Of a DNA stretch of 64,000 bases, positions 50,932 to 63,969 are shown in pieces. Position 1 is the first letter of the stretch, and each line of letters opens with the position of its first letter. Origin of the DNA: Nitrosopumilus sp. b1. GTDB lineage: Archaea > Thermoproteota > Nitrososphaeria > Nitrososphaerales > Nitrosopumilaceae. The stretch is taken from the NCBI RefSeq assembly GCF_014078545.1, contig NZ_MU078712.1, positions 5,105 to 69,104 on the forward strand, in the 5' to 3' direction. The notes below the pieces were generated by a model. The model was not told where the DNA came from. It made no database searches and was given only the letters and a program-made list of their open reading frames with translations. A program made the position numbers and the translations under genes.

Positions 50932-51035
50932 TGTGTACTCACGCCTTGAAGGGTTTAAAAAACATTAGTTTGACAAATAGTTCCTATTCTGACTTAGGTT
51001 TTCTCATTTTTAGCTAAAATTAAAGAAATCAGCTG

Positions 51036-52382
51036 ATGATGAACTATTTGGGAAATTTACATCCTAATTTCATGAGCGATAAACAAGTAAAAACTGAGGC
51101 ATGGGCTTCAGAATGGGGATTTCTTTTAGCATGCATAGGCTCTGCAGTTGGAATAGGTAACATCTGGAGATTCCCATATATTGTAGGTGAAAATGGCGGT
51201 GGTGCATTTCTAATTCCATTCATAATCATTGTTGGGAGTCTAGGGTTCGTTTTGATGTTACTTGAATTTGCAATAGGGAGAAGATACAAGTCTTCAATCG
51301 TTACTGGATTGGCAAGTATTTCTAAAAAATTCAAATGGGCTGGAGCAGCAATCGCATTAGTAGCATTTGCAATGCTTAGTTACTACCTTGTAATCTTAGG
51401 ATGGGTTTTATCATATTTTATCTCAAATCTTGGTCAAACATTTTTAGAATTTGAAAAATTCACTCAGTCATATTATCCTGTATTAGCTTTTACGGCTGTT
51501 TTGATTTTGACTTTTATTATTGTACGACGAGGAATTACTTCTGGAATAGAAAAATTCAACAAGATAGGAATTTTGTTTCTAATAGGAATTATTATTCCTT
51601 TGATGATTTATGGTGTGACTTTACCTGGTTCCAGTGAAGGAATTTCATATTTTCTTAAGCCTGATTTTTCTAGAATTGGAGAACCACAAATTTGGTCAAC
51701 TGCATTTGGTCAAGCATTTTTTTCTTTATCATTAGGTTCTGGCTCTTTACTTACCTATGGTAGCTACCTACGAGGAAAACATTCTCTGATCCGTTCTTCT
51801 TCAATAATTATTTCTGCAAATACAATGATATCGATATTTGCAGGAATTATGATTTTTTCATTTGTTTTCTCATTTGGAATGAACCCACAAGAGGGAATTC
51901 CATTAATCTTTGAAGTCTTACCGAATATTTTTTCTGACATTAATTTTGGCTTCTTTGTTGGTGCAATCTTCTTCTTCTTACTCTTAATAGCTGGACTAAC
52001 TTCTGCAATAGGGCTTTTTCAAGTTCCAAATGCTTCTCTACAGGACTCATTTAATCTATCAAACAAAAAATCAAGTGCCATAATCGCAATTGGAATATTT
52101 TTGGTAGGTATTCCTTCAGCATTAAGTTATAGTCCAATTGAACTTGGTTTGTCAGGTGTTTTATTCCTAGATGGAATGGATTATGTATTTGGAACGTATG
52201 GTATCACAATCTCTGAACTGATTTTTGTAGTAGTGGTAACTTGGTTTGTTGATAAAAAGAAGATACTAGAAAATATTAACGCGACATCTAGATTCAATAT
52301 ACCACAATCGACAATATCTGTGGTAAAATATTCCTCACCAATTGTAATTATTGCAATACTAGTATCCACTGCAATTTTCTAG
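51036..52382 (+). CDS. Sodium-dependent transporter of the NSS (SNF) family
   Basis: A 448-residue membrane protein with about 11 helices and the LeuT-type signature in TM1 (WGFLLACIGSAVGIGNIWRFPYI). NSS proteins import amino acids or osmolytes with Na+. In a chemolithoautotroph it may recover amino acids or take up compatible solutes. A start at ATG 51072 (MSDKQVKTEAW) is also plausible. Single gene. Confidence 0.9.
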   Translation: MMNYLGNLHPNFMSDKQVKTEAWASEWGFLLACIGSAVGIGNIWRFPYIVGENGGGAFLIPFIIIVGSLGFVLMLLEFAIGRRYKSSIVTGLASISKKFKWAGAAIALVAFAMLSYYLVILGWVLSYFISNLGQTFLEFEKFTQSYYPVLAFTAVLILTFIIVRRGITSGIEKFNKIGILFLIGIIIPLMIYGVTLPGSSEGISYFLKPDFSRIGEPQIWSTAFGQAFFSLSLGSGSLLTYGSYLRGKHSLIRSSSIIISANTMISIFAGIMIFSFVFSFGMNPQEGIPLIFEVLPNIFSDINFGFFVGAIFFFLLLIAGLTSAIGLFQVPNASLQDSFNLSNKKSSAIIAIGIFLVGIPSALSYSPIELGLSGVLFLDGMDYVFGTYGITISELIFVVVVTWFVDKKKILENINATSRFNIPQSTISVVKYSSPIVIIAILVSTAIF

Positions 52383-52492
52383 ATTTATTTAATCATAAAA
52401 ACAAAACAAACAGAATTTTAGAAATGCATCAAAAAAGATCATATCTATTCAAAACCTCTTAAATTTTTAAGTGATTATTTCTTATAATCAAC

Positions 52493-52846
52493 ATGGGGAT
52501 TTTTGATCGATTCAGAAAAAAACAGATAGAAAATTTAGGCATTCAAGACCAAAAAATTAAATTTTTGGAAATAACCTGGACAGATCTCCTGACATGGCCA
52601 GCTGAAAAAACTAGTCAAGAGATACAAAGAAACCTTGTACCTTATTATAAAAAACTAAAGAAAATGCAGATAGATGAATTACGTAATATGAAAATTGAGA
52701 TAGTAGAGTCAAGAGATAAACATCTGCAAATTCCAGATTCCTTATCACCAAATTTTCCCATGAATAAATTAGAAACTCCAAAATCCGAATTTACTAAATT
52801 GATTCAGGCTATTGAGGAAGAAATCAAAAATCGCAAACCAGAGTAA
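52493..52846 (+). CDS. Small charged helical protein, unknown
   Basis: A 117-residue soluble protein: basic start (MGIFDRFRKKQ), then long helices rich in Glu and Lys. No membrane segment or motif. Convergent with ferritin. Confidence 0.55.
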   Translation: MGIFDRFRKKQIENLGIQDQKIKFLEITWTDLLTWPAEKTSQEIQRNLVPYYKKLKKMQIDELRNMKIEIVESRDKHLQIPDSLSPNFPMNKLETPKSEFTKLIQAIEEEIKNRKPE

Positions 52847-52922
52847 GACATTTTTCAATTACTTTATTTTTTGTGATGATATGATGAATGTAAATTACGA
52901 AACCAGCATGAATGGTTTTTAA

Positions 52923-53432
52923 TTATTCTTTGTCTTGTTTGGAACCTATTCCATTCATGTACTTGTCAACCTCGTAGATGGCAAGTTTATCACGGCCTAC
53001 GACTTCAAATTTTTGCAAAATATTATCAAAGGTTTCTTCTTCTTCGATCTGTTCTTTTACGAACCACTGCATAAAGTCAAATGTACGGCGATCTCTTTCT
53101 TTTTCTGCTAATGTGATGATTTGATGTATGGATTGTGTTACTTTTTGTTCATTCTCAAGCGAAGTCCTGATGATTTCCTCCAACGACTTGACATCTTTTT
53201 TTGGTTCAGAGCATGCAGATATGTCTGCCATAGTGCCTATTCTATTCATGTAATGAACTATCTTTAGCATGTGCTGTCTTTCTTCATCTGATTGAGCATA
53301 AAAAAAACTTGCAGCTCCTTCATACCCTGTTACTTCACACCATGAGGCCATTCCAAGATAAAAGCTTGAAGCATCAGATTCCATAACTATTTGCTCATTT
53401 AGAGATTTTCTCATCTCGTCTGATAGTTTCAT
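52923..53432 (-). CDS. Ferritin
   Basis: A 169-residue four-helix ferritin. Diiron-centre ligands are visible in the first helix (QIVMESDASSFYLGMASW, the E17 region), the second (DEERQHMLKIVHYMNRIG, E50/H53 type) and the third (EEIIRTSLENEQKVTQSI). The C-terminal part keeps E in VKEQIEEEETF. It stores iron and detoxifies Fe2+. It lies at the left edge of the AGCT-box region; only a single AGCT is upstream of it. Confidence 0.93.
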   Translation of the reverse strand: MKLSDEMRKSLNEQIVMESDASSFYLGMASWCEVTGYEGAASFFYAQSDEERQHMLKIVHYMNRIGTMADISACSEPKKDVKSLEEIIRTSLENEQKVTQSIHQIITLAEKERDRRTFDFMQWFVKEQIEEEETFDNILQKFEVVGRDKLAIYEVDKYMNGIGSKQDKE

Positions 53433-53567
53433 ACGTTACGTTTCGTTCTATTTGATAATAGTTTGTTTCTGATTTATTGTTTACAAAATCAATATTTGTA
53501 TAATTTCATAATGTTAGCTTATGTTTTATTGATTTTACCTACTGTAAAAAATCAATGTCATAATAAC

Positions 53568-53590
53568 AGCTGAAAGCAAGCATTATGCTT
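53568..53590 (+). promoter_or_regulatory. Degenerate AGCT box before the secreted 155-residue gene
   Basis: AGCT at 53568 followed by TGCT 18 bp later (53586-53589) instead of AGCT at 19 bp. The downstream edge lies about 39 nt before the ATG at 53629, the same position as in the exact boxes. May be a weak version of the element. Confidence 0.35.
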
Positions 53591-53628
53591 TACCAGTTTT
53601 TTAATAATATCCAGATTATCAATTCATA

Positions 53629-54096
53629 ATGACAAAACAAAAAACACTGAGAATGTTGCTGGTTGTCTCTGCCTTAGCGGTAGGCATCGGTTTCATAGGA
53701 GAATCATATGCTGAAGTGCGTACTGATTACTTTGCATCAGGTGATATTAGACAAGGAATTAACTCTGATAACACAGATGAAAAAAGCAAAGTTGGATACT
53801 ATGCAATTTCAGGCTTGGCTGATATGAGAAATTGGGTTCATGTTAGCATGGATTACTATCCGTCTGCTGATTCAACCTATGAAGTTCGTTTGGCAAATAC
53901 CTCAACTGGCAATGAATTGGTTCTAGGTGAACTAAAAGGTGACGACAAGAGAGATCAATTCTCAACTGAAGAGGATCTTTCCGGGTATAATGTAATTAAG
54001 GTGTTTGAAATATCTGATACTGGTAATGTAGCATTGTCAGGACAGAGTTCTTTTGAATATCTTGATGCAGATAGAGCACCCACAAGACCCAACTAA
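53629..54096 (+). CDS. Secreted protein, unknown
   Basis: A 155-residue protein with a signal peptide (1-28, ending ESYAE) and a beta-rich mature part (HVSMDYYPSADSTYEVRLANTSTGNELVLGEL). No cysteine after the signal and no enzymatic motif. First gene of the accessory region; promoter carries a degenerate AGCT box. Confidence 0.6.
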   Translation: MTKQKTLRMLLVVSALAVGIGFIGESYAEVRTDYFASGDIRQGINSDNTDEKSKVGYYAISGLADMRNWVHVSMDYYPSADSTYEVRLANTSTGNELVLGELKGDDKRDQFSTEEDLSGYNVIKVFEISDTGNVALSGQSSFEYLDADRAPTRPN

Positions 54097-54149
54097 TTTT
54101 TTTTAATTATGAACTATGAAAATTCAATACGAGATTATCATAGTTCATA

Positions 54150-54172
54150 AGCTACATTTGAAAATTTCAGCT
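54150..54172 (+). promoter_or_regulatory. AGCT box 1
   Basis: AGCT at 54150 and 54169 (N15 between). Followed by a TATA-like GATTATAGATAA region and the ATG at 54218 (45 nt after the box). Confidence 0.6.
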
Positions 54173-54217
54173 TGACGACTTACAAAATTATTTGATTATA
54201 GATAATTTATCTATTAC

Positions 54218-54436
54218 ATGGATAGGTTGTTGGTAATAGCTATTTTAGGAATTTGGGTTTCTACTGTAACTCTAATTGGAATATGGCTAGTTGATGATGG
54301 AATTATAACATTAGATTTTCTTGATAATTTTACAAAAAATTACATTCTCATTGAAAACCAAATTTATTTAATTGATATTAGCCCTATAGAATCTGTTTAT
54401 TTTTCCTCTTTCATGGATAATATTTCGCTGCATTGA
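54218..54436 (+). CDS. Small membrane protein
   Basis: A 72-residue protein with one N-terminal transmembrane helix (about 4-25) and a short, partly hydrophobic exposed part. Promoter has an AGCT box. The next small membrane gene starts at ATG 54439, 2 nt later. Function unknown. Confidence 0.55.
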   Translation: MDRLLVIAILGIWVSTVTLIGIWLVDDGIITLDFLDNFTKNYILIENQIYLIDISPIESVYFSSFMDNISLH

Positions 54437-54438
54437 AA

Positions 54439-54648
54439 ATGAGTTTAATTCATCGGGACATTATTGAAAACATAATTATCTGTGTTGTTGTGATACTTGG
54501 CGCATTCGTTATTGCACTTTTCCTTATAAATACAAATTTCTTTGAATTTGATTCGCAAAGTTTTTCTGATAATTTAACATCTTTTTGTAATAATCCACAA
54601 TATTCTAAAATCGATTCTAATTTGCGTAATGCCCTCTGTGAGACATAG
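54439..54648 (+). CDS. Small membrane protein
   Basis: A 69-residue protein with one transmembrane helix (about 11-31) and a C-terminal domain with two cysteines (SFCNNP, ALCET) that may form a disulfide outside the cell. ATG 54439 is preferred over TTG 54433, which overlaps the previous stop. Second gene of a two-gene unit. Confidence 0.5.
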   Translation: MSLIHRDIIENIIICVVVILGAFVIALFLINTNFFEFDSQSFSDNLTSFCNNPQYSKIDSNLRNALCET

Positions 54649-54659
54649 ATCTCAAAATC

Positions 54660-54682
54660 AGCTATAGCAGATAATTTCAGCT
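54660..54682 (+). promoter_or_regulatory. AGCT box 2
   Basis: AGCT at 54660 and 54679. A TATA-like element (AATCTAATTAAAAA) follows at about 54695-54708; the first possible start codon is the ATG at 54716 of a short upstream reading frame, 33 nt from the box. Confidence 0.6.
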
Positions 54683-54715
54683 ATTTTTTTGAAATAATCT
54701 AATTAAAAACGGGAT

Positions 54716-54751
54716 ATGATGATGATTATGCGTATTTGGGGTGAGAAATAA
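54716..54751 (+). CDS. Possible 11-codon upstream reading frame
   Basis: ATG ATG ATG ATT ATG ... TAA, with the stop overlapping the ATG of the 81-residue gene (TAATG). It begins where transcription is predicted to start, so it could be read leaderlessly and couple translation to the next gene. A GGGGTGA Shine-Dalgarno-like stretch also precedes the main ATG. Confidence 0.25.
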   Translation: MMMIMRIWGEK

Positions 54752-54996
54752 TGCAAGAGTCCCGAATTAGGACAAAGGCTGTTGTGGATACACTTCATGA
54801 TCTTACTGAAATTATTTCTGATAGTGATGATTACCTCATACCTAAAGAAATTCTAGCAAAAACTGATCCTGAATTCTTACGAATTTCTGATGAAAATTTT
54901 GTTCCAAGACAGGTAGTGGACATTCTTGGCGTACTTACCAAACTGTATGATCGCGGGTATGTGGATTCAATTAAAGATATCCAAAAATTAAGATAA
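54751..54996 (+). CDS. Small soluble protein, unknown
   Basis: An 81-residue acidic, helical protein (DTLHDLTEIISDSDDYLIPKEIL, then VPRQVVDILGVLTKLYDRG). The end resembles a small helical adaptor but no family is recognised. Preceded by AGCT box 2 and a short upstream frame. Confidence 0.5.
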   Translation: MQESRIRTKAVVDTLHDLTEIISDSDDYLIPKEILAKTDPEFLRISDENFVPRQVVDILGVLTKLYDRGYVDSIKDIQKLR

Positions 54997-55027
54997 TTTT
55001 TCATTAACAATTCTATGATGGGTATTT

Positions 55028-55050
55028 AGCTGAAATTCAACATAACAGCT
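55028..55050 (+). promoter_or_regulatory. AGCT box 3
   Basis: AGCT at 55028 and 55047; 37 nt from the box to the ATG at 55088. The sequence after the box (TAGAAAA..TTAT) is shared with box 8 in front of the paralogous gene at 59838. Confidence 0.7.
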
Positions 55051-55087
55051 TAGAAAACATTATCATATTTTTTCTACAAATTTACCC

Positions 55088-55468
55088 ATGTCTGACTTAG
55101 AAAATAATGAACTTGTAAAGAATCTAATCGATGAGTTCCAGGCAAGCGGCTTGGAAGTAACATCGGCAAACTATGGGGGATTCAAAAAACCTCAAGCAAT
55201 AAAAGATCAACGACCTGATGTTGTTGCATGGGATTCTGATAAACAACTATACTATTTGGGTTTGGTAGCCGATCCAGAAAAGATTGATCTAGAAAATATG
55301 GATGATAAACTAAAGATTCTGTCCAATCTGGTTATGGATGCAGGATCTACTCAAAATGCAAGACTCCCGTTCTATCTTGGTATTCCAAAAGGAAATGTAG
55401 TTGATGTAACAAAAATGTTAGATGAAAATAATATTCCACGAGATAATGTTTTTACTATAGAACTATAA
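55088..55468 (+). CDS. Paralogue A of a 125-residue alpha/beta protein (nuclease-fold-like, no catalytic set)
   Basis: A 126-residue soluble protein, clearly homologous along its whole length to the protein at 59838 (shared: LVK.LID.F...G.EV..ANYG.FK.P, PDV.AWDS, LSNL, PFYLGIPK). The order helix, strand, PDVVAWDS..LYYLGLV resembles a PD-(D/E)XK-type core, but the expected second acid and lysine are missing, so a non-catalytic or different function is likely. Single gene under AGCT box 3. Confidence 0.65.
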   Translation: MSDLENNELVKNLIDEFQASGLEVTSANYGGFKKPQAIKDQRPDVVAWDSDKQLYYLGLVADPEKIDLENMDDKLKILSNLVMDAGSTQNARLPFYLGIPKGNVVDVTKMLDENNIPRDNVFTIEL

Positions 55469-55507
55469 TTAATTTTCTTTTAAAATTAAACTAAAATATT
55501 TGTTTTA

Positions 55508-55642
55508 TTAATTATTTTCAAAATTATTTTGTATTATTTGAATTTTTTTCCTAGCACATTCTAACGCTTCATTTTTTGTATGAAAATGTTTAGACTTTTG
55601 ACATATTGAACATATGTCTTTGTGATTATCCTCTGATGACAT
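55508..55642 (-). CDS. 44-residue CxxC/His protein
   Basis: ATG 55642 to TAA 55508. Holds CSICQKSKHFH with a further C at residue 29, a possible small zinc finger, followed by an Asn-rich helical tail. It begins 2 nt after the end of the next zinc protein, so it is the third gene in the TFB operon. Confidence 0.5.
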   Translation of the reverse strand: MSSEDNHKDICSICQKSKHFHTKNEALECARKKIQIIQNNFENN

Positions 55643-55644
55643 AT

Positions 55645-55845
55645 CTAAGACGCTAAAGTATTGATAACTTGTTTTTTAGGAAAGTTATAGTTTCGTTCTA
55701 ATGGAATTATTGAATCATTAATGTGTGGTTTTGGATCTGAGCATTCTCCACATCTAGGGAAAATTATCTCTGCATCATAGTTTACTTCTCCAATACTTTT
55801 CTCACAAATTACACACTTTACTACTTTCTTATCGTAAATATTCAT
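55645..55845 (-). CDS. 66-residue zinc-ribbon-like protein in the TFB operon
   Basis: Contains CVIC (11-14) and CGEC (32-35), a probable zinc ribbon or rubredoxin-like knuckle, and a basic C-terminal part. It starts 2 nt after the TFB stop, so it is cotranscribed with the transcription factor and may act in transcription. Confidence 0.6.
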   Translation of the reverse strand: MNIYDKKVVKCVICEKSIGEVNYDAEIIFPRCGECSDPKPHINDSIIPLERNYNFPKKQVINTLAS

Positions 55846-55847
55846 TG

Positions 55848-56771
55848 TTATACCTCTATAGAATCAATATATTTTGCTGCATATTTTCGAAACATCGAAG
55901 TATTTTTTCTAATTGTCACTGCACTTACGTTGCATTTTTTTTCAAGCTTTGGATATGATATTTTTTCATTATTTGCAGCACATGATAAATAAATTGCACC
56001 TGCCGCTAATCCTAAGGGATTTTTTCCCTGAACTATTCTATCTTTTATAACATCTTGAAGGATTTTTAACGCCAATCTTTGAGATTTTTCACTAGCTCCT
56101 ACCTTACTTGCAATTTTTCCTAGATAGTCAATGCAACCTGGATGTTCTAAGGAGATATTTAGATAACTTACTAATCTCTTGTAACTTCTGATTAGATAAC
56201 GTCTTGTAACATTTGATGCTTTTGCAATTTCATCCACACTTCGAGGAATTCCTGATAACCTGCAAGCAACATAGATTGATGATGCCATCATAACTGGAAT
56301 TGATTTTCCGCGAATTAGTCCTCTGTTTGCTGCTTTTCGATATATTGTAGCAGTCTTTTCAATTACTGAATCTGGTAATCCTAATTTTGGTTTTAATGAA
56401 TCTAAATGTGCAAATGCCTTGTTCAAGCTTCTTTTTTTTCCTGCATTTTTGCTTCTAAAATCCCACATTCGGAGTCTATGAAAGCGCTTTTTTGTACTGT
56501 GAGATAATCTGTTTCCAGATGCATCTACATTTTTTTGACTTATGGTACTAGAAATTCCCATATCAGGTATAGAAATCCTTGAAGGACTGCCGGTTCTGAC
56601 CTTAGATGATGTTTTTCCATCACTGTATGTTTTTTCTTGATGTGAAAAATCGGCTATTCTTTCTTTGAGAACGTATCCGCAATCACTGCAAATTATCTCT
56701 CCGTTGGTTTCATCAGTAACTATTGAAGCGTGTTTATTTGTCAGGCATTTTTGCACGACTATGCTTTTCAT
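55848..56771 (-). CDS. tfb: Transcription factor B (TFB paralogue)
   Basis: A 307-residue general transcription factor. N-terminal zinc ribbon (CLTNKH...CSDCGYVL, residues 9-38), B-reader/linker, and two cyclin folds (about 115-205 and 210-305) including RKAANRGLIRGKSIPVMMASSIYVACR and KNPLGLAAGAIYLSC. Thaumarchaea carry several TFBs; the local context of this one (AGCT box in its own promoter, accessory neighbours) suggests a condition-specific factor. It heads a three-gene operon with two small zinc proteins. Confidence 0.95.
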   Translation of the reverse strand: MKSIVVQKCLTNKHASIVTDETNGEIICSDCGYVLKERIADFSHQEKTYSDGKTSSKVRTGSPSRISIPDMGISSTISQKNVDASGNRLSHSTKKRFHRLRMWDFRSKNAGKKRSLNKAFAHLDSLKPKLGLPDSVIEKTATIYRKAANRGLIRGKSIPVMMASSIYVACRLSGIPRSVDEIAKASNVTRRYLIRSYKRLVSYLNISLEHPGCIDYLGKIASKVGASEKSQRLALKILQDVIKDRIVQGKNPLGLAAGAIYLSCAANNEKISYPKLEKKCNVSAVTIRKNTSMFRKYAAKYIDSIEV

Positions 56772-56808
56772 AATGTTTCTTTGTTAATTAAAAAGATAAG
56801 AACTCATA

Positions 56809-56831
56809 AGCTTCATTTATGATAATAAGCT
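56809..56831 (-). promoter_or_regulatory. AGCT box 4 (TFB promoter)
   Basis: AGCT at 56809 and 56828; the proximal AGCT lies 37 nt before the TFB start at 56771 on the minus strand. A TTTTTAATTAA TATA-like stretch falls between. The promoter-proximal AGCTTATGAGT is shared with box 6. Confidence 0.7.
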
Positions 56832-56837
56832 ATTTTT

Positions 56838-57122
56838 TTATTTTGGAATAAAATATTCTGATAGTATGTTTTTTGAATTGTACTTTATGAATCCATCATA
56901 TACTGATACTTGAGAATTTTTTTGAAAAATAAATTCTAAAAATCCATCGTCATATCCTAATTTTACCGAAGCCCGATCTGTTTTAGCAAGAAATGTTTTT
57001 AATTTTTCTGGTTTGTATTCTCCTAATTTTTCCCACGAATCATCAAATTTTATGGTTTGAAATGATCTGAATGCCGTATTGTTGTATACAAAAGGCTTGT
57101 CAAAATTTGTCAATGAACTCAT
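56838..57122 (-). CDS. Small soluble protein, unknown
   Basis: A 94-residue protein rich in Phe and Tyr with alternating strands (NKPF-like start, SVKLGYDDGFLEFIFQKNSQVSVYDGFIKY), resembling a small beta-rich domain. Divergent from the basic small genes; AGCT box 5 lies between, with 46 nt to this start. Its stop is 6 nt from box 4. Confidence 0.5.
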   Translation of the reverse strand: MSSLTNFDKPFVYNNTAFRSFQTIKFDDSWEKLGEYKPEKLKTFLAKTDRASVKLGYDDGFLEFIFQKNSQVSVYDGFIKYNSKNILSEYFIPK

Positions 57123-57168
57123 TACTTGTTCTTCTTCATTCCTCTTAATGATATTTTATTGAAAAATA

Positions 57169-57191
57169 AGCTTAATATCAAATCACAAGCT
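57169..57191 (+). promoter_or_regulatory. AGCT box 5 (divergent)
   Basis: AGCT at 57169 and 57188. Distance to the plus-strand ATG at 57230 is 38 nt, to the minus-strand start at 57122 is 46 nt, so the plus-strand gene has the standard geometry. Confidence 0.7.
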
Positions 57192-57229
57192 TAATTGAAA
57201 TTATATCAAATTACCTCCATTATACACTA

Positions 57230-57349
57230 ATGAAAAAGACTAAACAAATAGACGATATGAAAACAGCAATGATAAAAGATCTTACAAATAGAGAGAACAT
57301 ATCAAAAAAGAAAGTCAAAGAACTCGTGGAAAATTTCATAGAGTCGTGA
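57230..57349 (+). CDS. 39-residue basic helical protein
   Basis: ATG 57230 to TGA 57349. A single charged helix-like peptide (KKKVKELVENFIES end). Under AGCT box 5 with the standard 38-nt spacing, which supports it as a real start. The next gene overlaps it by 4 nt. Confidence 0.5.
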   Translation: MKKTKQIDDMKTAMIKDLTNRENISKKKVKELVENFIES

Positions 57350-57519
57350 AACTAAAAGAAAAAATTCGTAGCGAGGTATTAAAATCTGCCAGGAAAAGTA
57401 GAAAATTATTAAAAAAAGAAAGTAAGGTGACAAAACAGCCTCCTACAAAAATGAATCCTTTATCATTTGAACGAAGTGCTGCAGGAGCAAATTCTAGAAG
57501 GCATCTTAAAAAGCAATAA
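57346..57519 (+). CDS. 57-residue lysine/arginine-rich protein
   Basis: GTG at 57346 (GTGA overlap with the previous stop), TAA at 57519. Highly basic N-terminal helix (RSEVLKSARKSRKLLKKES) and a basic end (NSRRHLKKQ); likely binds nucleic acid. Translationally coupled to the 39-residue gene. Confidence 0.5.
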   Translation: MKLKEKIRSEVLKSARKSRKLLKKESKVTKQPPTKMNPLSFERSAAGANSRRHLKKQ

Positions 57520-57534
57520 GCAATATAGTTGTCA

Positions 57535-57557
57535 AGCTTATTTTCAAAATATTAGCT
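57535..57557 (+). promoter_or_regulatory. AGCT box 6
   Basis: AGCT at 57535 and 57554; 37 nt to the ATG at 57595, with a TATA-like CTAAATTAAA in between. Confidence 0.7.
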
Positions 57558-57594
57558 TATGAGTCCATAAATCGTATCTAAATTAAATTTCCAT

Positions 57595-57939
57595 ATGAAA
57601 CCATATCGAACTAGAAAAGTTGGAAAAGGAGTCAAAAGACCAAATTCAAAAAACATGGTTGGAATGAAGACCACATCAAAAACTAACAGCATAAAACATA
57701 GTATATCGAAAATTCACTCTTATCAAAAATCATCAATTCGAGAACTAAAACTGGATATTAAAAAAATTGAGAATACAATAGTCTCCCCCGTGGGTTTGGA
57801 TAAAATTTCTGCAATAGAGATAGAAAAAATTCAGGATAAAAGAAAGCACATCTCATTGCACATGATAAATGTAATTAGTAATATTGTGGCATCTGCTAGA
57901 AAACTATCTTATCTTGAGGACAGATACCAAGCTAAATAG
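57595..57939 (+). CDS. Basic small protein with C-terminal helix pair
   Basis: A 114-residue protein. Residues 1-50 are basic and disordered (RTRKVGKGVKRPNSK), then two long helices (KLDIKKIENTIVS, EKIQDKRKHISLHMINVISNIV). Looks like a nucleic-acid-associated or chromatin-type protein. Single gene under AGCT box 6. Confidence 0.55.
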   Translation: MKPYRTRKVGKGVKRPNSKNMVGMKTTSKTNSIKHSISKIHSYQKSSIRELKLDIKKIENTIVSPVGLDKISAIEIEKIQDKRKHISLHMINVISNIVASARKLSYLEDRYQAK

Positions 57940-57947
57940 ATACAAAA

Positions 57948-58751
57948 TCATCGTGTTGGCTTGCTTCTTGCACTTTTCTTTGATTTTTCCCAAGTGAATT
58001 CCAGATAGTCCTTACACCAATCTAGGAACAAGGGATCATTGCCATAAAACATATTCCTTAGATCTGGTTCCCCATTATTTGCAGCAAAGATAACACCTGC
58101 TTCTTTTTCGTTCATTATCACAATGGTGTCAAGATCAGATGAAATCCTTCGTTCAATCTTTCCCTGCTCTATTAGGGTGAAATATCCAAGCTTTTCAAGA
58201 GTTTTGGTACGGCCTTCTGGTTCTATGAGATCTTTTGTAATTATGTGTCGATAGGTGGCGTTTTCTTTTATCCGCTTCATCAAGGGATCCACAAGTCCTG
58301 GAGGCGATTCCGTAATTGCATCAAAAACAAAAACTTTGGCATTTCTGTATATTGACTTCCATTTATCTAGAACAACTGTAACTCCTTTGATGTGTTTACA
58401 ATTTTCTAATACTCCTAATCGTCTAACAAATTTCATATGCATATTTCCTAATTCATGAGTTTCAAAGAATTTTTGATTTTTTGATAAAAATGTTATTAGT
58501 GGTAATTGTGATAAAATTATTTTTCCATTAGTTGTGATGTGGTAATGTTCATCCGTGCCCTTTCTAACAAAATATGCACTAGAAAGACGGTCTAGATTCC
58601 GATGAATTTCTTGAGATGTAACTTTGAGTAATTTTGCTAATGATGATACTCTATGTGGTTTTTTGTTAAGATTTGATAATATTCTTAATCTTTGTTCACT
58701 TGCTAATTCCAAGAAACATAATGCTGCATCCTCCATTGACTGTTCTTTCAT
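57948..58751 (-). CDS. ArsR-like winged-helix regulator with FilR1-type sensor domain
   Basis: A 267-residue transcription regulator. Residues 5-85: winged helix (ALCFLELASEQRLRILSNL, VSSLAKLLKVTSQEIHRNLDRLSSAYFV, wing HYHITTNGK). Residues 120-255 are an alpha/beta domain matching the DUF1724/FilR1 type seen in archaeal regulators (SPPGLVDPLMKRIKENATYRHIITKDLIEPE; IVIMNEKEAGVIFAANNGEPDL). The gene is divergent from the cupredoxin gene, and AGCT box 7 lies between them. It is the best candidate in this region for a protein that binds the box, though this is inference. Confidence 0.75.
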   Translation of the reverse strand: MKEQSMEDAALCFLELASEQRLRILSNLNKKPHRVSSLAKLLKVTSQEIHRNLDRLSSAYFVRKGTDEHYHITTNGKIILSQLPLITFLSKNQKFFETHELGNMHMKFVRRLGVLENCKHIKGVTVVLDKWKSIYRNAKVFVFDAITESPPGLVDPLMKRIKENATYRHIITKDLIEPEGRTKTLEKLGYFTLIEQGKIERRISSDLDTIVIMNEKEAGVIFAANNGEPDLRNMFYGNDPLFLDWCKDYLEFTWEKSKKSARSKPTR

Positions 58752-58799
58752 GTTGTTTGATATACATCACATGTTAAAAATCAATCTGATAATATTGTA

Positions 58800-58822
58800 A
58801 GCTTATAATCATATAATTAGCT
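58800..58822 (+). promoter_or_regulatory. AGCT box 7 (divergent regulator/cupredoxin)
   Basis: AGCT at 58800 and 58819; 38 nt to the cupredoxin ATG at 58861 and 48 nt to the regulator start at 58751. Confidence 0.7.
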
Positions 58823-58860
58823 GATGACATGTTATAGTTTGTAAAAATCACTAACTATCA

Positions 58861-59490
58861 ATGAAAAATAATGCAGATAGATTTGGTATGATAATTGCAA
58901 TTGCAATAACTGCAGTAGCTATTGCATTTGTTGGTACATTATCAAATCCTCAAGATAGAAACATACAGCCACAAGGACAAGCAGTCATTGATAGAGCTGC
59001 CACTGAGTTAAAAGAAATACCTGAAGTTGCACAAGATACGTTTACAGATACTGTAGAAGAATTAGAAAAACTACCTACGGAAATCGAAGAATCATTAGAT
59101 GATGTAGACAATATCCAAGAAGAATCGATGGAAGTCATCAAAGATGTGATTCCAGATGTACCTGACGTTGTAAAACAATCTGAAGGTAAACTCTTAGAAA
59201 CCATTAGTATTCCTAAGGATACTGCAGCGCCAGGATGTGAAGAGACCAACTCTTGTTACATTCCTGAAATCGTGACAATTAAGCGTGGAGGCGAAGTGAT
59301 TTGGGAAAACGATGATATTGCAGCACACACTGTTACCAGCGGTTCAGCAACATCTGGTCCTAATGGATTATTTGATAGTGGACTCATTTATCCTGGAGAC
59401 ACTTATTCAATCCAACTAGACTTGGTTAACGAGTATGTGTATTTTTGTCAAGTCCACCCTTGGATGACTGGAAAAATTGTGGTAAAATAA
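58861..59490 (+). CDS. Membrane-anchored cupredoxin (plastocyanin/halocyanin-like)
   Basis: A 209-residue protein: transmembrane anchor at about 9-27, an acidic helical linker (45-115), then a blue-copper domain (about 120-209) with ligands H156, C196, H199 and M202 (AAHT ... YFCQVHPWM). Such cupredoxins carry electrons at the outer face of the membrane in copper-based thaumarchaeal respiration. Box-controlled promoter suggests use under particular conditions, e.g. stress or altered copper/electron flow. Confidence 0.92.
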   Translation: MKNNADRFGMIIAIAITAVAIAFVGTLSNPQDRNIQPQGQAVIDRAATELKEIPEVAQDTFTDTVEELEKLPTEIEESLDDVDNIQEESMEVIKDVIPDVPDVVKQSEGKLLETISIPKDTAAPGCEETNSCYIPEIVTIKRGGEVIWENDDIAAHTVTSGSATSGPNGLFDSGLIYPGDTYSIQLDLVNEYVYFCQVHPWMTGKIVVK

Positions 59491-59777
59491 CCTCTTTTTT
59501 TATTATATTCAAATCTACAACTATTAAGATGACCATCTAGTTCATCAAAGAAATGTTTTATTTTCAGCTTGATTCATTATCAGGATACATATCATATACT
59601 GAGTATCAAATGTATGTTACAAATTTTAAAATCTGCTTTTTCAAATTCTAATTTCTTTTTTAGATTTGTTCACTATGATGATCTTGCGCTTTGTGGAACT
59701 TTATTTTCATCGGTATTGATATTTTTATTTGTACTTAATACTGGCACTTAATTTGGATTTTTGTCTGTAATAATCAT
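59491..59777. other. Intergenic region, no convincing gene
   Basis: AT-rich. A TTG-started frame at 59569-59751 has a hydrophobic end but no good start, no box at the standard distance and no family, so I do not call it. A single AGCT at 59566 has no partner at 19 bp. Confidence 0.5.
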
Positions 59778-59800
59778 AGCTGAATTGTAAGATATTAGCT
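59778..59800 (+). promoter_or_regulatory. AGCT box 8 (head of the ectoine region)
   Basis: AGCT at 59778 and 59797; 37 nt to the ATG at 59838. Downstream sequence resembles that following box 3. Confidence 0.7.
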
Positions 59801-59837
59801 TAGAAAATGTTATGTTGTTTTGAACTAACTTTTTCCT

Positions 59838-60215
59838 ATGTCAGAAAATCATAATGATTTAGTAAAAGGATTAATTGATAAATTTGATGAAAATGGTTTT
59901 GAAGTAATTTGTGCTAATTATGGTGAATTCAAAGAACCTGAGGAAATTCAAGGTGTTAAACCGGATGTAATAGCATGGGATTCTGAAAATGAGTTATATC
60001 ATTTAGCGTCTGTTATTGAACCTGAAGAACTAACTGATGAAAAAACCAATAGACGCGTTGAAACACTATCTAATTTAATGATGAGTAATGGTAAATCTAC
60101 AAGAACACGAATTCCATTTTATTTGGGAATTCCAAAACAAAAATCCAACCAGATAGAGAAATTTTTAGATAAAAACAACGCAGAACAGACTAATATTTTT
60201 CCACTGGAGGTTTAA
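59838..60215 (+). CDS. Paralogue B of the 125-residue alpha/beta protein; probable first gene of the ectoine operon
   Basis: A 125-residue protein homologous to that at 55088 (ANYGEFKEPEEI, PDVIAWDSENELYHLASV, IPFYLGIPKQ). The gene ends at TAA 60213-60215, and GGAGG inside its last codons serves as the ribosome-binding site of ectA, whose probable start lies 4 nt further on. It is therefore likely cotranscribed with ectABCD-mscS and places that operon under AGCT box 8. Function unknown; could be a stress-response or regulatory protein. Confidence 0.7.
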   Translation: MSENHNDLVKGLIDKFDENGFEVICANYGEFKEPEEIQGVKPDVIAWDSENELYHLASVIEPEELTDEKTNRRVETLSNLMMSNGKSTRTRIPFYLGIPKQKSNQIEKFLDKNNAEQTNIFPLEV

Positions 60216-60219
60216 GATC

Positions 60220-60732
60220 CTGAGCCAAATTACATTTTCAAAACCAACCGTTAGTGACGGAAAAGAAATATTCAGATTAGTTCGGGAAAATCCTCCTTTA
60301 GATGAAAACTCTGAATATTTCTATCTCTTGTTATGCCATCATTTTTCTGAGACTTGTGTTGTTGCAAAACAAAACTCTCAAGTTGTAGGATTCATTACTG
60401 GATATGTTCCTCCAAAGGAAAAAAAGACATTATTTGTTTGGCAAGCTGCAGTATCGCCTAAACTTCGTGGGAAAGGTCTTGCTGCAAAAATGCTTTATTC
60501 AATTTTACAAAGAGAAAATTTACGTAATTTTGAGTTTGTAGAAGCCACACTTGCACCTTCAAACAAGTCATCTTATTCATTTCTGATATCTTTTGCCAAT
60601 GATTTAGGCACAAATTTTACAAAATCTCCTCTTTTTACAAAGGATAAATTTGGAGAATCCAAACACGAAGAAGAAGAACTTATCAGAATTGGTCCATTCA
60701 AAACTCAAAAACTAGTGGAGGTTTTTGCTTAA
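60220..60732 (+). CDS. ectA: L-2,4-diaminobutyrate N-gamma-acetyltransferase
   Basis: A GNAT-family acetyltransferase, the second step of ectoine synthesis. The conserved domain begins at ITFSKPTVSDGKEIFRLV, upstream of the first ATG/GTG/TTG codon in frame (TTG 60328, which would delete about 36 family-conserved residues). The only suitable start is a CTG at 60220, 9 nt after a GGAGG at 60206-60210 (an ATC at 60217 is the alternative). Core motifs LFVWQAAVSPKLRGKGLAAKML (acetyl-CoA P-loop) and EATLAPSN are intact. Stop overlaps ectB (TAATG). Confidence 0.88.
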   Translation: MSQITFSKPTVSDGKEIFRLVRENPPLDENSEYFYLLLCHHFSETCVVAKQNSQVVGFITGYVPPKEKKTLFVWQAAVSPKLRGKGLAAKMLYSILQRENLRNFEFVEATLAPSNKSSYSFLISFANDLGTNFTKSPLFTKDKFGESKHEEEELIRIGPFKTQKLVEVFA

Positions 60733-62027
60733 TGCAAAATATCAAAAAATTTGAATCTAGAGTGCGCTCCTATTCTAGAGCCTTTCCTGTTACTTTCAAA
60801 TTAGCAAAAGATGCATACCTCTATGACGAACAAGATAATGCGTATCTAGATTTTCTTTGTGGAGCGGGTTCAATAAATTATGGGCATAACAATGAGGAAA
60901 TAAAAAAGAAAGTAATCGATTATCTTGATAGTGATGGAATTGTACATGGTTTGGATCTTGCAACAACTGCCAAAGAAGAATTTTTGAAAACATTTTCGTC
61001 ATTAATCTTGGAACCAAGAGAATTGAATTACAAAGTGCAATTTACCGGCCCTACAGGTACTAATGCTGTAGAAGCAGCACTAAAGTTAGCAAGAAAAGTC
61101 ACCGGCAGAACAAACATCATTTCTTTTACCAATGGTTTTCATGGTGTATCTTTAGGGCCTCTTGCTGCAACAGGAAATTCAGGACATAGAGGTGGTTCAG
61201 GTGTTCCGTTAACCAATGTAACATTTATGCCATATGATGGCTATTTTGGAAATAAATCAAACACAATTGATTATGTACGAAGATTCTTAGAAGATACCAG
61301 CAGTGGAGTTGATCTTCCCGCTGCATTTATTGTTGAAACAATACAGGGTGAAGGTGGAATTAACGTTGCAAAAGATAGCTGGTTGACATCTCTTTATGAA
61401 CTTTGTAAAGAATTTGAAATTTTATTGATTGTTGATGATATCCAAGTTGGATGTGGACGTACAGGATCTTTCTTTAGCTTTGAGCAATCCGAAATAACTC
61501 CGGATATGGTTGTATTATCAAAATCTCTCAGTGGTTTTGGATTACCATTTTCTATGCTTTTGTTAAAGCCCGAACTAGACATATGGAAACCTGGTGAGCA
61601 TAACGGAACATTTAGAGGCAATAACTTGGCATTTGTTAGTGCAACAGAAACTCTCAAAAAATATTGGTCCACACAAAAGTTTGAATCTGAAATTAATAAA
61701 AAATCTCAACTTTTAAAATCTGAACTTGAGCGTATCGTGAAAAAACATCTTTCTGCTGATATGGAGGTTCGCGGAAAGGGACTAATCTTTGGAGTTGATT
61801 GTAGGTCTCCTGATTTAGCCAAGCAATTAGCTGATAGAGCATTTGAAAATAGGTTAATTCTAGAAAGGTGCGGTTCAGAAGATCAAGTTGTCAAATTCAT
61901 GCCTCCTTTAACTGCTGATATCGAAACAATTGAAGCAGGTCTGAGAATTTTTGAAAAAAGCATTGAACAACTAACTACCAATTCTGAAATTCAATTGGAG
62001 GTAAAAAAGAGGACTGAACAAAATTGA
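60732..62027 (+). CDS. ectB: L-2,4-diaminobutyrate transaminase
   Basis: A 431-residue class III PLP aminotransferase forming diaminobutyrate from aspartate semialdehyde, the first step of ectoine synthesis. Recognised from FESRVRSYSRAFPVTF, GAGSINYGHN, QFTGPTGTNAVEAALKLARK, EGGINVA and the PLP lysine in VLSKSLSGFGLP. The next start (TTG of ectC) overlaps its stop. Confidence 0.95.
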   Translation: MQNIKKFESRVRSYSRAFPVTFKLAKDAYLYDEQDNAYLDFLCGAGSINYGHNNEEIKKKVIDYLDSDGIVHGLDLATTAKEEFLKTFSSLILEPRELNYKVQFTGPTGTNAVEAALKLARKVTGRTNIISFTNGFHGVSLGPLAATGNSGHRGGSGVPLTNVTFMPYDGYFGNKSNTIDYVRRFLEDTSSGVDLPAAFIVETIQGEGGINVAKDSWLTSLYELCKEFEILLIVDDIQVGCGRTGSFFSFEQSEITPDMVVLSKSLSGFGLPFSMLLLKPELDIWKPGEHNGTFRGNNLAFVSATETLKKYWSTQKFESEINKKSQLLKSELERIVKKHLSADMEVRGKGLIFGVDCRSPDLAKQLADRAFENRLILERCGSEDQVVKFMPPLTADIETIEAGLRIFEKSIEQLTTNSEIQLEVKKRTEQN

Positions 62028-62419
62028 TTATACGTAAAATTGACTCCATAAGGGAGTCTGATAGGACAGTTGATACGCCAAATTGGTCTAGTAGCAGACT
62101 TTTATTAAAAAAAGATAACATGGGTTTTTCCTTTCATGAAACTTTGGTGCGGGCCGGAACTGAAACCAAAATTTGGTACAAAAATCATTTGGAAGCCGTG
62201 TATTGCATAGAAGGAATTGGCGAGATTGAAGATCTTGAAACTGGATTGACGCATCAAATCGTTCCTGGAGTAATGTATGCACTTGACAAACATGAAAGAC
62301 ACATACTGCGAGGAAAAACTAACATGAGAATGATCTGTGTGTTTAATCCACCTTGTATTGGAACAGAAACTCACGACAAAGAGGGAGCATATCCACTTCT
62401 TGAGGTTGAAAATTCATGA
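62024..62419 (+). CDS. ectC: L-ectoine synthase
   Basis: A 131-residue cupin that cyclises N-gamma-acetyl-diaminobutyrate to ectoine. Seen: IIRKIDSIRESDRTV, SRLLLKKDNMGFSFHET, metal-site region EAVYCIEGIGEIED and the later H in DKHERHILRG, ending with NPP(C)IGTETHDKEGAYPLL. TTG start overlapping the ectB stop. Confidence 0.95.
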   Translation: MIIRKIDSIRESDRTVDTPNWSSSRLLLKKDNMGFSFHETLVRAGTETKIWYKNHLEAVYCIEGIGEIEDLETGLTHQIVPGVMYALDKHERHILRGKTNMRMICVFNPPCIGTETHDKEGAYPLLEVENS

Positions 62420-63339
62420 GTGTGTCTAAAACAGTAAATGATGACTATCCTACTAGAAACAGTGATTCATTTCAAGTAATTTCTAGGAGAGATCCTATTG
62501 TGTATGGGAATTCATTGCAACTTGATGTACTTGATTCTGATCAAGTAAAATTTTTTGAAGAAAGTGGGTATCTCTTTTTTCCAAATTTATTTTCAACAAA
62601 AGAGGTATCTACTTTATCTGATGAACTTGAACGATTATCAAAAAACGAAGAGCTAAAAAAGCAAGAACAATTTGTTTTAGAACCTCAAAGCGGCGAGGTG
62701 CGCTCAATTTTTGAAGTACACAAAAATAATAATTTGTTTGAAAAATTATCAAAAGATCCTAGAGTAGTAAATGTAGTACGACAGCTTTTGGGAAGTGATG
62801 TCTATATCACTCAATCAAGAATTAATCGAAAGCCAGGATTTGAAGGAAAAGAATTCTATTGGCACTCTGATTTTGAAACATGGCATGCAGAGGATGGAAT
62901 GCCTCACATGAGAGCTATCAGCTGCTCAATTAGCCTTACTGATAATTATGAATTTAATGGACCTCTGATGGTAATTCCCGGTTCGCACAAGCAGTTTATT
63001 TCATGCGCTGGTAAGACTCCAGATAATCACTACCAAGTATCTCTAAAACGGCAAGAAATTGGAACTCCAGATAAAGAGAATCTTGAAAAAATGGTTAAAC
63101 AAAACAGTATTGATACTGCAAAAGGACCTGCAGGTTCTGTAATATTCTTTGATTGTAATTTAATGCATGGTTCATCAGGAAATATCACTCCATACCCTAG
63201 AAGTAATGTCTTTTTTGTATACAACAGTATCAAAAACAAGCTGGAAGATCCATTTAGTGCAAGTAAACCAAGACCAGAGTATATTGCATCACGTGAGCCT
63301 CAAGTAATTACTCCTAAATCATTGGAAATTACCATTTAG
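62416..63339 (+). CDS. ectD: Ectoine 5-hydroxylase
   Basis: A 307-residue Fe(II)/2-oxoglutarate dioxygenase that makes 5-hydroxyectoine. The iron-binding HxD (YWHSDFETWHAEDGMP) and distal His (FFDCNLMHGSSGN) plus VYITQSRINRKPGFEGKEF are EctD-specific. ATGA overlap with ectC. Confidence 0.95.
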   Translation: MSVSKTVNDDYPTRNSDSFQVISRRDPIVYGNSLQLDVLDSDQVKFFEESGYLFFPNLFSTKEVSTLSDELERLSKNEELKKQEQFVLEPQSGEVRSIFEVHKNNNLFEKLSKDPRVVNVVRQLLGSDVYITQSRINRKPGFEGKEFYWHSDFETWHAEDGMPHMRAISCSISLTDNYEFNGPLMVIPGSHKQFISCAGKTPDNHYQVSLKRQEIGTPDKENLEKMVKQNSIDTAKGPAGSVIFFDCNLMHGSSGNITPYPRSNVFFVYNSIKNKLEDPFSASKPRPEYIASREPQVITPKSLEITI

Positions 63340-63358
63340 CTATTCAGGATGAATAATA

Positions 63359-63850
63359 TTGGAAATTGATCTTTTCTTCCCAATACTTTCAATAATTCTA
63401 GTTCTGTGTATTGTTGTAGTAATCAAGCTAGTTGAATATACGAAATTTCAAACTCTAAAAGGTTCACACAAGGCTACAAGTGTAATATTCATAATTTTAG
63501 GGGTGTCTGAAGTTCTCTATCTTTCACGATCAATGGGGTTGCTTATCCCTGCTATTGAGATTGTTACCTCTCTGAGTGCAATTTTACTCTTTTTCACATT
63601 TGTTTATCTTAACAAGCTACAGAATGCAGTATCTGGAATGAGTATAGCTCTTAGCCCAAGAATGAATGTGGGTGATGAGATTGAATGCAAAGGAAAACGT
63701 GGTATTATTACACAGATTGGTTTGTCAAAAACAATTGTAAAATTGGAGGACTCTGATAGATTGATGTTTATTCCTAACAAAAAATTAGATGAAGAGATTT
63801 CTATCATTAAGAAGATAAAAACGACTCACAGTGATATTAAAACGAGATAG
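63359..63850 (+). CDS. Small MscS-type mechanosensitive channel
   Basis: A 163-residue protein: three transmembrane helices (about 5-22, 40-60, 62-85) with the pore-lining helix leading into the MscS beta domain (ALSPRMNVGDEIECKGKRGIITQIGLSKTIVKLED). It lacks most of the C-terminal vestibule. It lies 19 nt after ectD and is the known mscS partner of the Nitrosopumilus ectoine cluster, letting the cell release solutes on osmotic downshift. TTG start with a GGATGA Shine-Dalgarno-like sequence at 63347-63352. Confidence 0.85.
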   Translation: MEIDLFFPILSIILVLCIVVVIKLVEYTKFQTLKGSHKATSVIFIILGVSEVLYLSRSMGLLIPAIEIVTSLSAILLFFTFVYLNKLQNAVSGMSIALSPRMNVGDEIECKGKRGIITQIGLSKTIVKLEDSDRLMFIPNKKLDEEISIIKKIKTTHSDIKTR

Positions 63851-63854
63851 TTTA

Positions 63855-63916
63855 ACGAGGAGTTGGCAGGGGAAAATACTGTGAATCGTCTGAAAACCCC
63901 TTCCTCGTCAAATTTT
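63855..63916 (+). terminator. Compound hairpin plus T-run after the ectoine operon
   Basis: Outer stem ACGAGGA (63855-63861)/TCCTCGT (63902-63908), inner stem GGGG/CCCC (63869-63872/63897-63900), then a T5 run at 63912-63916. Acts as an operon terminator or as a small RNA in its own right. Confidence 0.5.
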
Positions 63917-63946
63917 TGTACGTGGAATTGTTGATAAAAATTCTTA

Positions 63947-63969
63947 AGCTTTGATTATGATTTTCAGCT
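63947..63969 (+). promoter_or_regulatory. AGCT box 9
   Basis: AGCT at 63947 and 63966. By the geometry of the other boxes, the controlled gene should start at about 64007, just past the window's right edge. Confidence 0.6.

Follow-up and report, generated by a model that had tools for sequence, protein, structure and literature searches.

In a 64,000-nt stretch of the Nitrosopumilus sp. b1 genome (hereafter the window), we found ten copies of one box, AGCT-N15-AGCT, in which two AGCT words stand exactly 19 bases apart. The boxes surround ectABCD, a 125-aa leader gene, an MscS-type channel, an SNF symporter, a cupredoxin, a winged-helix regulator, a general transcription factor (TFB) and small ORFs. 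All ten are intergenic and lie within one 13-kb stretch (51012-63969), which is, as far as its sequence tells, an osmostress island. We think it probable that the winged-helix regulator binds the box and activates the osmostress genes and the TFB together, perhaps with the TFB as a feed-forward arm. The box, its fixed geometry, the set of genes behind it, their conservation and the distinct TFB clade can be read from the DNA itself. A first-pass annotation of this region had recognised a regulon and described its box, TFB and two small genes; it stopped at the box, omitted the remainder of the regulon, and made no mention of osmostress or of the likely binder.

The AGCT box and the osmostress island

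The genes of the island outside the TFB operon and the regulator were as follows.

51072..52382, + strand: SNF (sodium:neurotransmitter symporter) family transporter
55088..55468, + strand: 126-aa protein, paralogue of the ect leader gene
58861..59490, + strand: cupredoxin (plastocyanin/azurin family)
59838..60215, + strand: 125-aa leader gene of the ect operon, kept in nearly all islands
60328..63339, + strand: ectABCD, ectoine and hydroxyectoine synthesis (EctC Pfam E 2e-59)
63359..63850, + strand: small MscS-type mechanosensitive channel

A 2016 study by Widderich reportedly presents, in its title, the Nitrosopumilus ect genes as osmostress-responsive. A fold search with the 126-aa leader protein returned weak nuclease-like matches only (EcoO109I, E 0.013). 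At ectA (60169-60328), no ATG or GTG start covers the N-terminus; the frame is already open at 60169, which points to initiation at a non-AUG codon or to a gene that has been shortened.

Besides the box of the TFB promoter, described below, the window contained nine boxes.

51012..51034, + strand: box of the SNF symporter, 37 nt before the start at 51072
54150..54172, + strand: box of a 72-aa ORF, R orientation, gap 45
54660..54682, + strand: box of a 7-codon ORF, R orientation, gap 45; the ORF overlaps the start of an 81-aa ORF
55028..55050, + strand: box of the 126-aa ORF, gap 37
57169..57191, both directions: bidirectional box, gap 38 to a 39-aa ORF (+) and gap 46 to a 94-aa ORF (-)
57535..57557, + strand: box of a 114-aa ORF, gap 37
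58800..58822, both directions: box common to the divergent regulator (gap 48) and cupredoxin (gap 38) genes
59778..59800, + strand: box of the 125-aa ORF leading ectABCD, gap 37
63947..63969, + strand: box in R orientation, facing an ORF that starts just past the window (C6:69120)

The window held 193 AGCT words, and pairs at spacing 19 occurred 10 times against 0.58 expected (Poisson P 7e-10), an enrichment of more than 10-fold; each other spacing up to 60 occurred at most twice. AGCTTA by itself was not enriched in the window, the enrichment being confined to the 19-base spacing. Genome-wide we counted 25 spacing-19 pairs, with a frequency outside the island close to the chance rate, and across 16 related islands there were 47 such pairs, most other spacings being found 0 to 5 times. 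In these islands the box took an asymmetric form, AGCTKAWWWTMA-N7-AGCT (hereafter the strong box). AGCT is a common palindrome, and the chance-level frequency of N15 pairs elsewhere in the genome might suggest a compositional artefact of AT-rich intergenic DNA. The P value, the single spacing, the intergenic position of every box, the fixed distance to the start codon and the conservation in other genera make such an origin vanishingly improbable, and the enrichment, the cross-island counts and the gap profile given below refute it.

Two further sequence features were seen around the boxes. AGCT pairs at spacing 27 (19+8) flank a KAWWWT core at L039:12325, L041:7523, L045:3372 and L047:12669, and look like a symmetric form of the box. 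At 54660-54753, the stop of the 7-codon ORF (MRIWGEK) overlaps the ATG of the 81-aa ORF (TAATG), and translation of the two may be coupled. Genes of about 80 aa that resemble stand-alone Lrp ligand-binding (RAM) domains carried a KAWWWTM core with AGCT 37/38 nt before the ATG (L036:672, L039:16417, L040:998, L040:13423, L041:17445, L045:5623, L046:11835, L047:11184), and by this arrangement they are probable further members of the regulon.

Box geometry and core promoter

When the window and 15 other islands were taken together, the gap between box and first ATG was 37/38 in 21 cases and 45/46/48 in 13, other values being mostly singletons. The two distances followed the orientation of the box: gaps of 37/38 were found when the conserved half, AGCTKAWWWT, was distal (F orientation), and gaps of 45/46 when it was proximal (R orientation). 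This oriented alignment ruled out start-codon noise as the source of the difference between 37 and 45, and it would place the centre of the KAWWWT core some 53-54 nt before the ATG in both orientations. Single boxes that serve divergent genes, one at each distance, were present at 57169 in the window and at L039 13078, L041 11020 and L047 11934. We also profiled AGCT upstream of the ATG of 290 island genes that had not been chosen for having boxes; peaks appeared at gaps 37/38, 45/46, 56/57 and 64/65 (110 of 191 occurrences), and no peaks of this kind were seen in 642 control genes. For the SNF symporter, the start is probably Met13 (51072, within 51036-51072), and from there the gap to its box is again 37 nt.

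Downstream of the box, 77% of box genes had an A at -33, 65% had a TATA-like word starting between -30 and -27, and an A was found at -10/-9. Since the archaeal standard places BRE at -34/-33 and TATA at -26/-27 from the transcription start (PMC4158304), these offsets put the ATG close to +1, and the mRNAs from box promoters are probably leaderless, with the box abutting the BRE. The box therefore stands at a fixed position just upstream of BRE/TATA, as an activator site does. It is not an additional BRE, because the canonical BRE A at -33 is downstream of it, and nothing in the core of these promoters suggested a special BRE for a special TFB.

The island TFB, its operon and its relatives

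The TFB gene and its surroundings comprised the following features.

56809..56831, - strand: box of the TFB promoter, F orientation, gap 37, kept upstream of orthologues
56792..56804, - strand: TFB promoter BRE/TATA region, A at -33, TTAT from -28
55848..56771, - strand: TFB paralogue of 307 aa, divergent island clade, first zinc knuckle C-x4-H and not CxxC
55645..55845, - strand: 66-aa CxxC..CxxC protein, gene 2 of the putative operon, 2-nt gap
55508..55642, - strand: 44-aa cysteine/histidine-rich protein, gene 3 of the putative operon, 2-nt gap

The first-pass annotation had correctly described a TFB followed by two small cysteine-rich genes at 2-nt gaps. Its claim that the three are cotranscribed is suggested by this spacing, from which we too infer a putative operon. 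It had also reported a perfect box at a standard distance of 37 nt; the box AGCTTATTATCATAAATGAAGCT (56831-56809, minus strand) does end exactly 37 nt before the TFB ATG, this distance being one of the two standards (37/38 and 45/46).

The protein matched Pfam TFIIB (PF00382, E 3e-29) over two stretches corresponding to the two cyclin repeats, the N-terminal zinc ribbon (PF08271, E 1e-7) and PDB 1d3u/1ais (E 1e-46). Its zinc knuckles departed from the canonical CxxC..CxxC pattern: most island TFBs carry C-x4-H where the first CxxC would stand, with the H missing from one of them, and the second CxxC is kept. Such a ribbon is a variation inside the TFB family and gives no ground for excluding these proteins. 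The reader region of the island TFBs was altered as well, as was the C-terminal recognition helix, in which V-T-I-R is still kept.

Ammonia-oxidizing archaea carry 4-11 TFB genes (PMC7554672), and we identified nine TFB-like ORFs in the host genome (a 1.79-Mb draft), the island TFB among them. In the tree of TFBs that had been called for at the outset, the island proteins formed one divergent clade (99/96), apart from a short-branched TFB found throughout the family that appears housekeeping-like. The gene is thus a paralogue, as first annotated, and not a sole, constitutive TFB. Relatives in named genomes were obtained with an alignment as query, a single-sequence scan giving none. The eight orthologues come from three genera (98% identity in G001, 42-46% in six genomes that belong to two further genera), and all eight lie behind a box, which supports the earlier view of a TFB inside a regulon and possibly serving as a feed-forward arm. 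The box is directly upstream in seven of the eight. In the eighth (G013), a box in R orientation stands at gap 45 from the GTG start of a universal-stress-protein-like ORF (uspA), whose stop overlaps the TFB start, so that the box precedes a uspA-TFB operon. In another ectoine island (L045:5937-8117, G089), two TFB genes of different clades diverge around one box.

The cysteine pattern of both small downstream proteins was kept in their relatives. Homologues of the 66-aa protein were found in four islands (L039, L041, L042, L047), and the 44-aa protein has two copies in L042 (G138), of which one follows a TFB from a different clade and the other a 66-aa homologue. The same genome has a box upstream of a further CxxC protein, and the other-clade TFB comes after it. 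The pair itself is not conserved beside orthologous TFBs, and four Nitrosopumilus-type islands have a cysteine-free ORF of 62-63 aa in this place, which rules out conserved cotranscription of the pair with the TFB. Homologues of the two zinc proteins recur in the regulon, and the association of small zinc proteins with TFBs is recurrent and not fixed.

Distribution across the family

EctC was present in 15 of 250 Nitrosopumilaceae genomes, and the strong box in 21 of 250, the reversed control giving three matches. Strong boxes occurred in 16 of the 17 genomes with ectC or a TFB orthologue versus 5 of the 233 others. All ten boxes were kept in the only other genome of the genus that was compared. 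Outside the family, a scan of the wider class found strong boxes at about control level. The one exception among the 17 is G124, where the box of the leader gene keeps its proximal AGCT and the distal word reads GGTT. Its island (L044) is poor in AGCT, with 13 words in 17 kb versus about 50 elsewhere; this depletion and the decayed box perhaps reflect avoidance due to a restriction-modification system.

The distribution bears on TFB switching, which the first-pass annotation had proposed beside feed-forward. In such switching, the island TFB would recognise the promoters itself, with the box acting as an upstream extension of the BRE, and would take the place of the housekeeping TFB across the regulon. 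Its divergent clade, with changes in zinc ribbon, reader region and recognition helix, is compatible with such switching. The TFB gene is linked to boxes wherever it occurs, and TFBs are reported to shift with growth state in biofilms of N. maritimus (PMC12448741); both observations fit switching as well. Against this, nine of the 15 ect genomes lack the island TFB clade, with ect persisting and boxes present in almost all of them, and several of these genomes are nearly complete (G014, G015, G093, G128). Moreover, the box has a canonical BRE/TATA downstream of it and is used in either orientation, with a different distance for each, which does not resemble a BRE. Switching by the island TFB is hence an unlikely explanation. 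Because genomes keep ect and boxes without it, this TFB appears dispensable for the regulon, and its absence from most ectoine genomes makes it an accessory output; it is best read as a co-activated output of the regulon and not as its driver. The reverse combination, TFB and boxes without ect, was found in G091 and G110.

The winged-helix regulator as candidate binder

The proposed activator is encoded within the island.

57948..58751, - strand: winged-helix regulator, TrmB-like fold, proposed box-binding activator

The structural model of the regulator (pLDDT 86) predicts an N-terminal wHTH and a C-terminal domain of the TrmB/TrmBL2 fold. Its best Foldseek matches were TrmBL2 (E 7.5e-11) and TrmB (E 4e-7), with a TM of about 0.45 and an rmsd of about 18 over the full length, which leaves the domain arrangement uncertain. 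The best Pfam match was PF25213 (HVO_A0261_N), and the Pfam TrmB domain PF01978 did not match at E <= 0.1, for which reason we call the protein TrmB-like and do not place it in the TrmB family.

The island winged-helix proteins formed one clade (97/94) apart from 32 paralogues, on a tree whose box label was partly set by island membership; a label based strictly on proximity needs five changes. Genes of the island clade adjoin AGCT pairs spaced by 19, and those of the sister clade adjoin pairs spaced by 8, with the motif GTMAGCT-N4-AGCTKAC and its proximal AGCT 37/38 nt before the ATG. The two spacings differ by 11 bp, about one helical turn. The recognition helix, QE[IV]HRN, is common to the winged-helix paralogues with an intact helix and is nearly the same in the sister clade. 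GTMAGCT-N4-AGCTKAC sites were also observed near small MREH-type ORFs, beside sister-clade winged-helix genes (8-spaced motif loci: L040:5166, L040:14647, L042:11804, L045:15629, L046:14142, L047:8230, L089, L092, L099, L112, L118).

From this pairing of clades with spacings, the island winged-helix protein is the likely binder of the box. The protein and the box are linked by genomic proximity and clade correlation, and the proximity may reflect mere island membership of the regulator gene; in L040 and L044 the protein is present with no 19-spaced box nearby. An unrelated regulator encoded elsewhere could then bind the box, with the island winged-helix gene as a mere target. We hold this to be most unlikely, given that the clades match AGCT motifs by spacing (19 versus 8) in many genomes and that the regulator still adjoins boxes in G103 and G137, which have neither ectC nor the island TFB.

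If the winged-helix protein is the binder, it might still repress. Winged-helix proteins of ArsR- and TrmB-like type are often repressors, and the regulator gene carries a box of its own, as would fit an operator site released under salt stress. Archaeal repressor sites, however, usually overlap the core promoter or lie downstream of it, and the box is strictly upstream of BRE/TATA, the position from which TrmBL1/Tgr and TFB-RF1 activate (PMC4158304, PMC5937170). By analogy with these two regulators, activation is the best reading of the box, and its use as a repressor site is quite unlikely.

Proposed mechanism and comparison with known systems

We infer binding by this protein, activation over repression, osmotic induction and a role for the TFB as follows. 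The regulator would sit as a dimer on the box, at about -60 to -38 from the start codon in F orientation or -68 to -46 in R, directly upstream of the BRE/TATA of leaderless promoters, where it would help to recruit TBP/TFB. It would thereby switch on ectABCD, MscS, the SNF symporter, the cupredoxin and small stress proteins, one box often driving both directions. The divergent TFB gene would be one of the targets, so that the activator raises a second, stress-linked TFB, which could extend or reinforce the response; such a feed-forward arm is plausible.

Parts of this arrangement are already known in kind, namely an activator site upstream of BRE and a TFB paralogue tied to stress. The closest likeness is to TrmBL1/Tgr and the Thermococcales glycolytic motif, which share a TrmB-like fold, a palindromic site that precedes BRE/TATA where genes are activated and a compact metabolic regulon (PMC4158304). 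TrmBL1/Tgr differs in its motif (TATCAC-N5-GTGATA) and its sugar ligands (PMC4158304); here, the half-sites are AGCT words 19 apart in an asymmetric box, which belongs to an osmostress island and is used in either orientation, each with its set distance, and the regulator has no Pfam TrmB domain match. TFB-RF1 of Pyrococcus furiosus likewise has a footprint just upstream of BRE (-47 to -70 from the translation start) and recruits TFB, but it acts at weak BREs and at a different site, and the accessible part of its report describes no TFB gene in its regulon (PMC5937170). Haloarchaeal multi-TFB stress networks similarly tie expanded TFB paralogues to environmental and salinity response, but the accessible part of that source does not describe a defined activator box together with a TFB gene next to compatible-solute genes (PMC4230888).

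The ectABCD genes are the same as those of the described Nitrosopumilus cluster (PMC5924519, PMC7554672), for which the literature searched, the 2016 study being outside its coverage, gave no regulatory box, activator or TFB. Nor did the search, including by locus tag, return a description of the box or its binder; many subscription papers and the 2016 N. maritimus ectoine study were outside its coverage. The one motif study found for ammonia-oxidizing archaea dealt with Nitrososphaera and with other motifs, linked to copper (PMC7785015). What is new, as far as checked, is the code of half-sites, the pair of fixed distances and the presence of a TFB inside an ectoine regulon.

These results tie one TFB clade to a defined box and a named candidate activator, with ectoine synthesis as the known physiological output, and so make it testable whether a TFB paralogue is an output or a driver in the stress response. 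The idea that surplus TFBs are devoted to individual stress programs can likewise be tested on a defined promoter set, and the island-bearing genomes appear to include cultivated Nitrosopumilus species. More broadly, and as a tentative generalisation that we consider rather doubtful, Nitrosopumilaceae may share a patchy stress-regulon module with its own activator, its own bidirectional two-distance box and its own divergent general transcription factor, in which paralogous activators would recognise one AGCT half-site at two spacings, 8 and 19, that differ by a helical turn, and the module TFB would reprogram transcription beyond the island. For a group with few genetic tools, the box offers a means of reading regulation from sequence.
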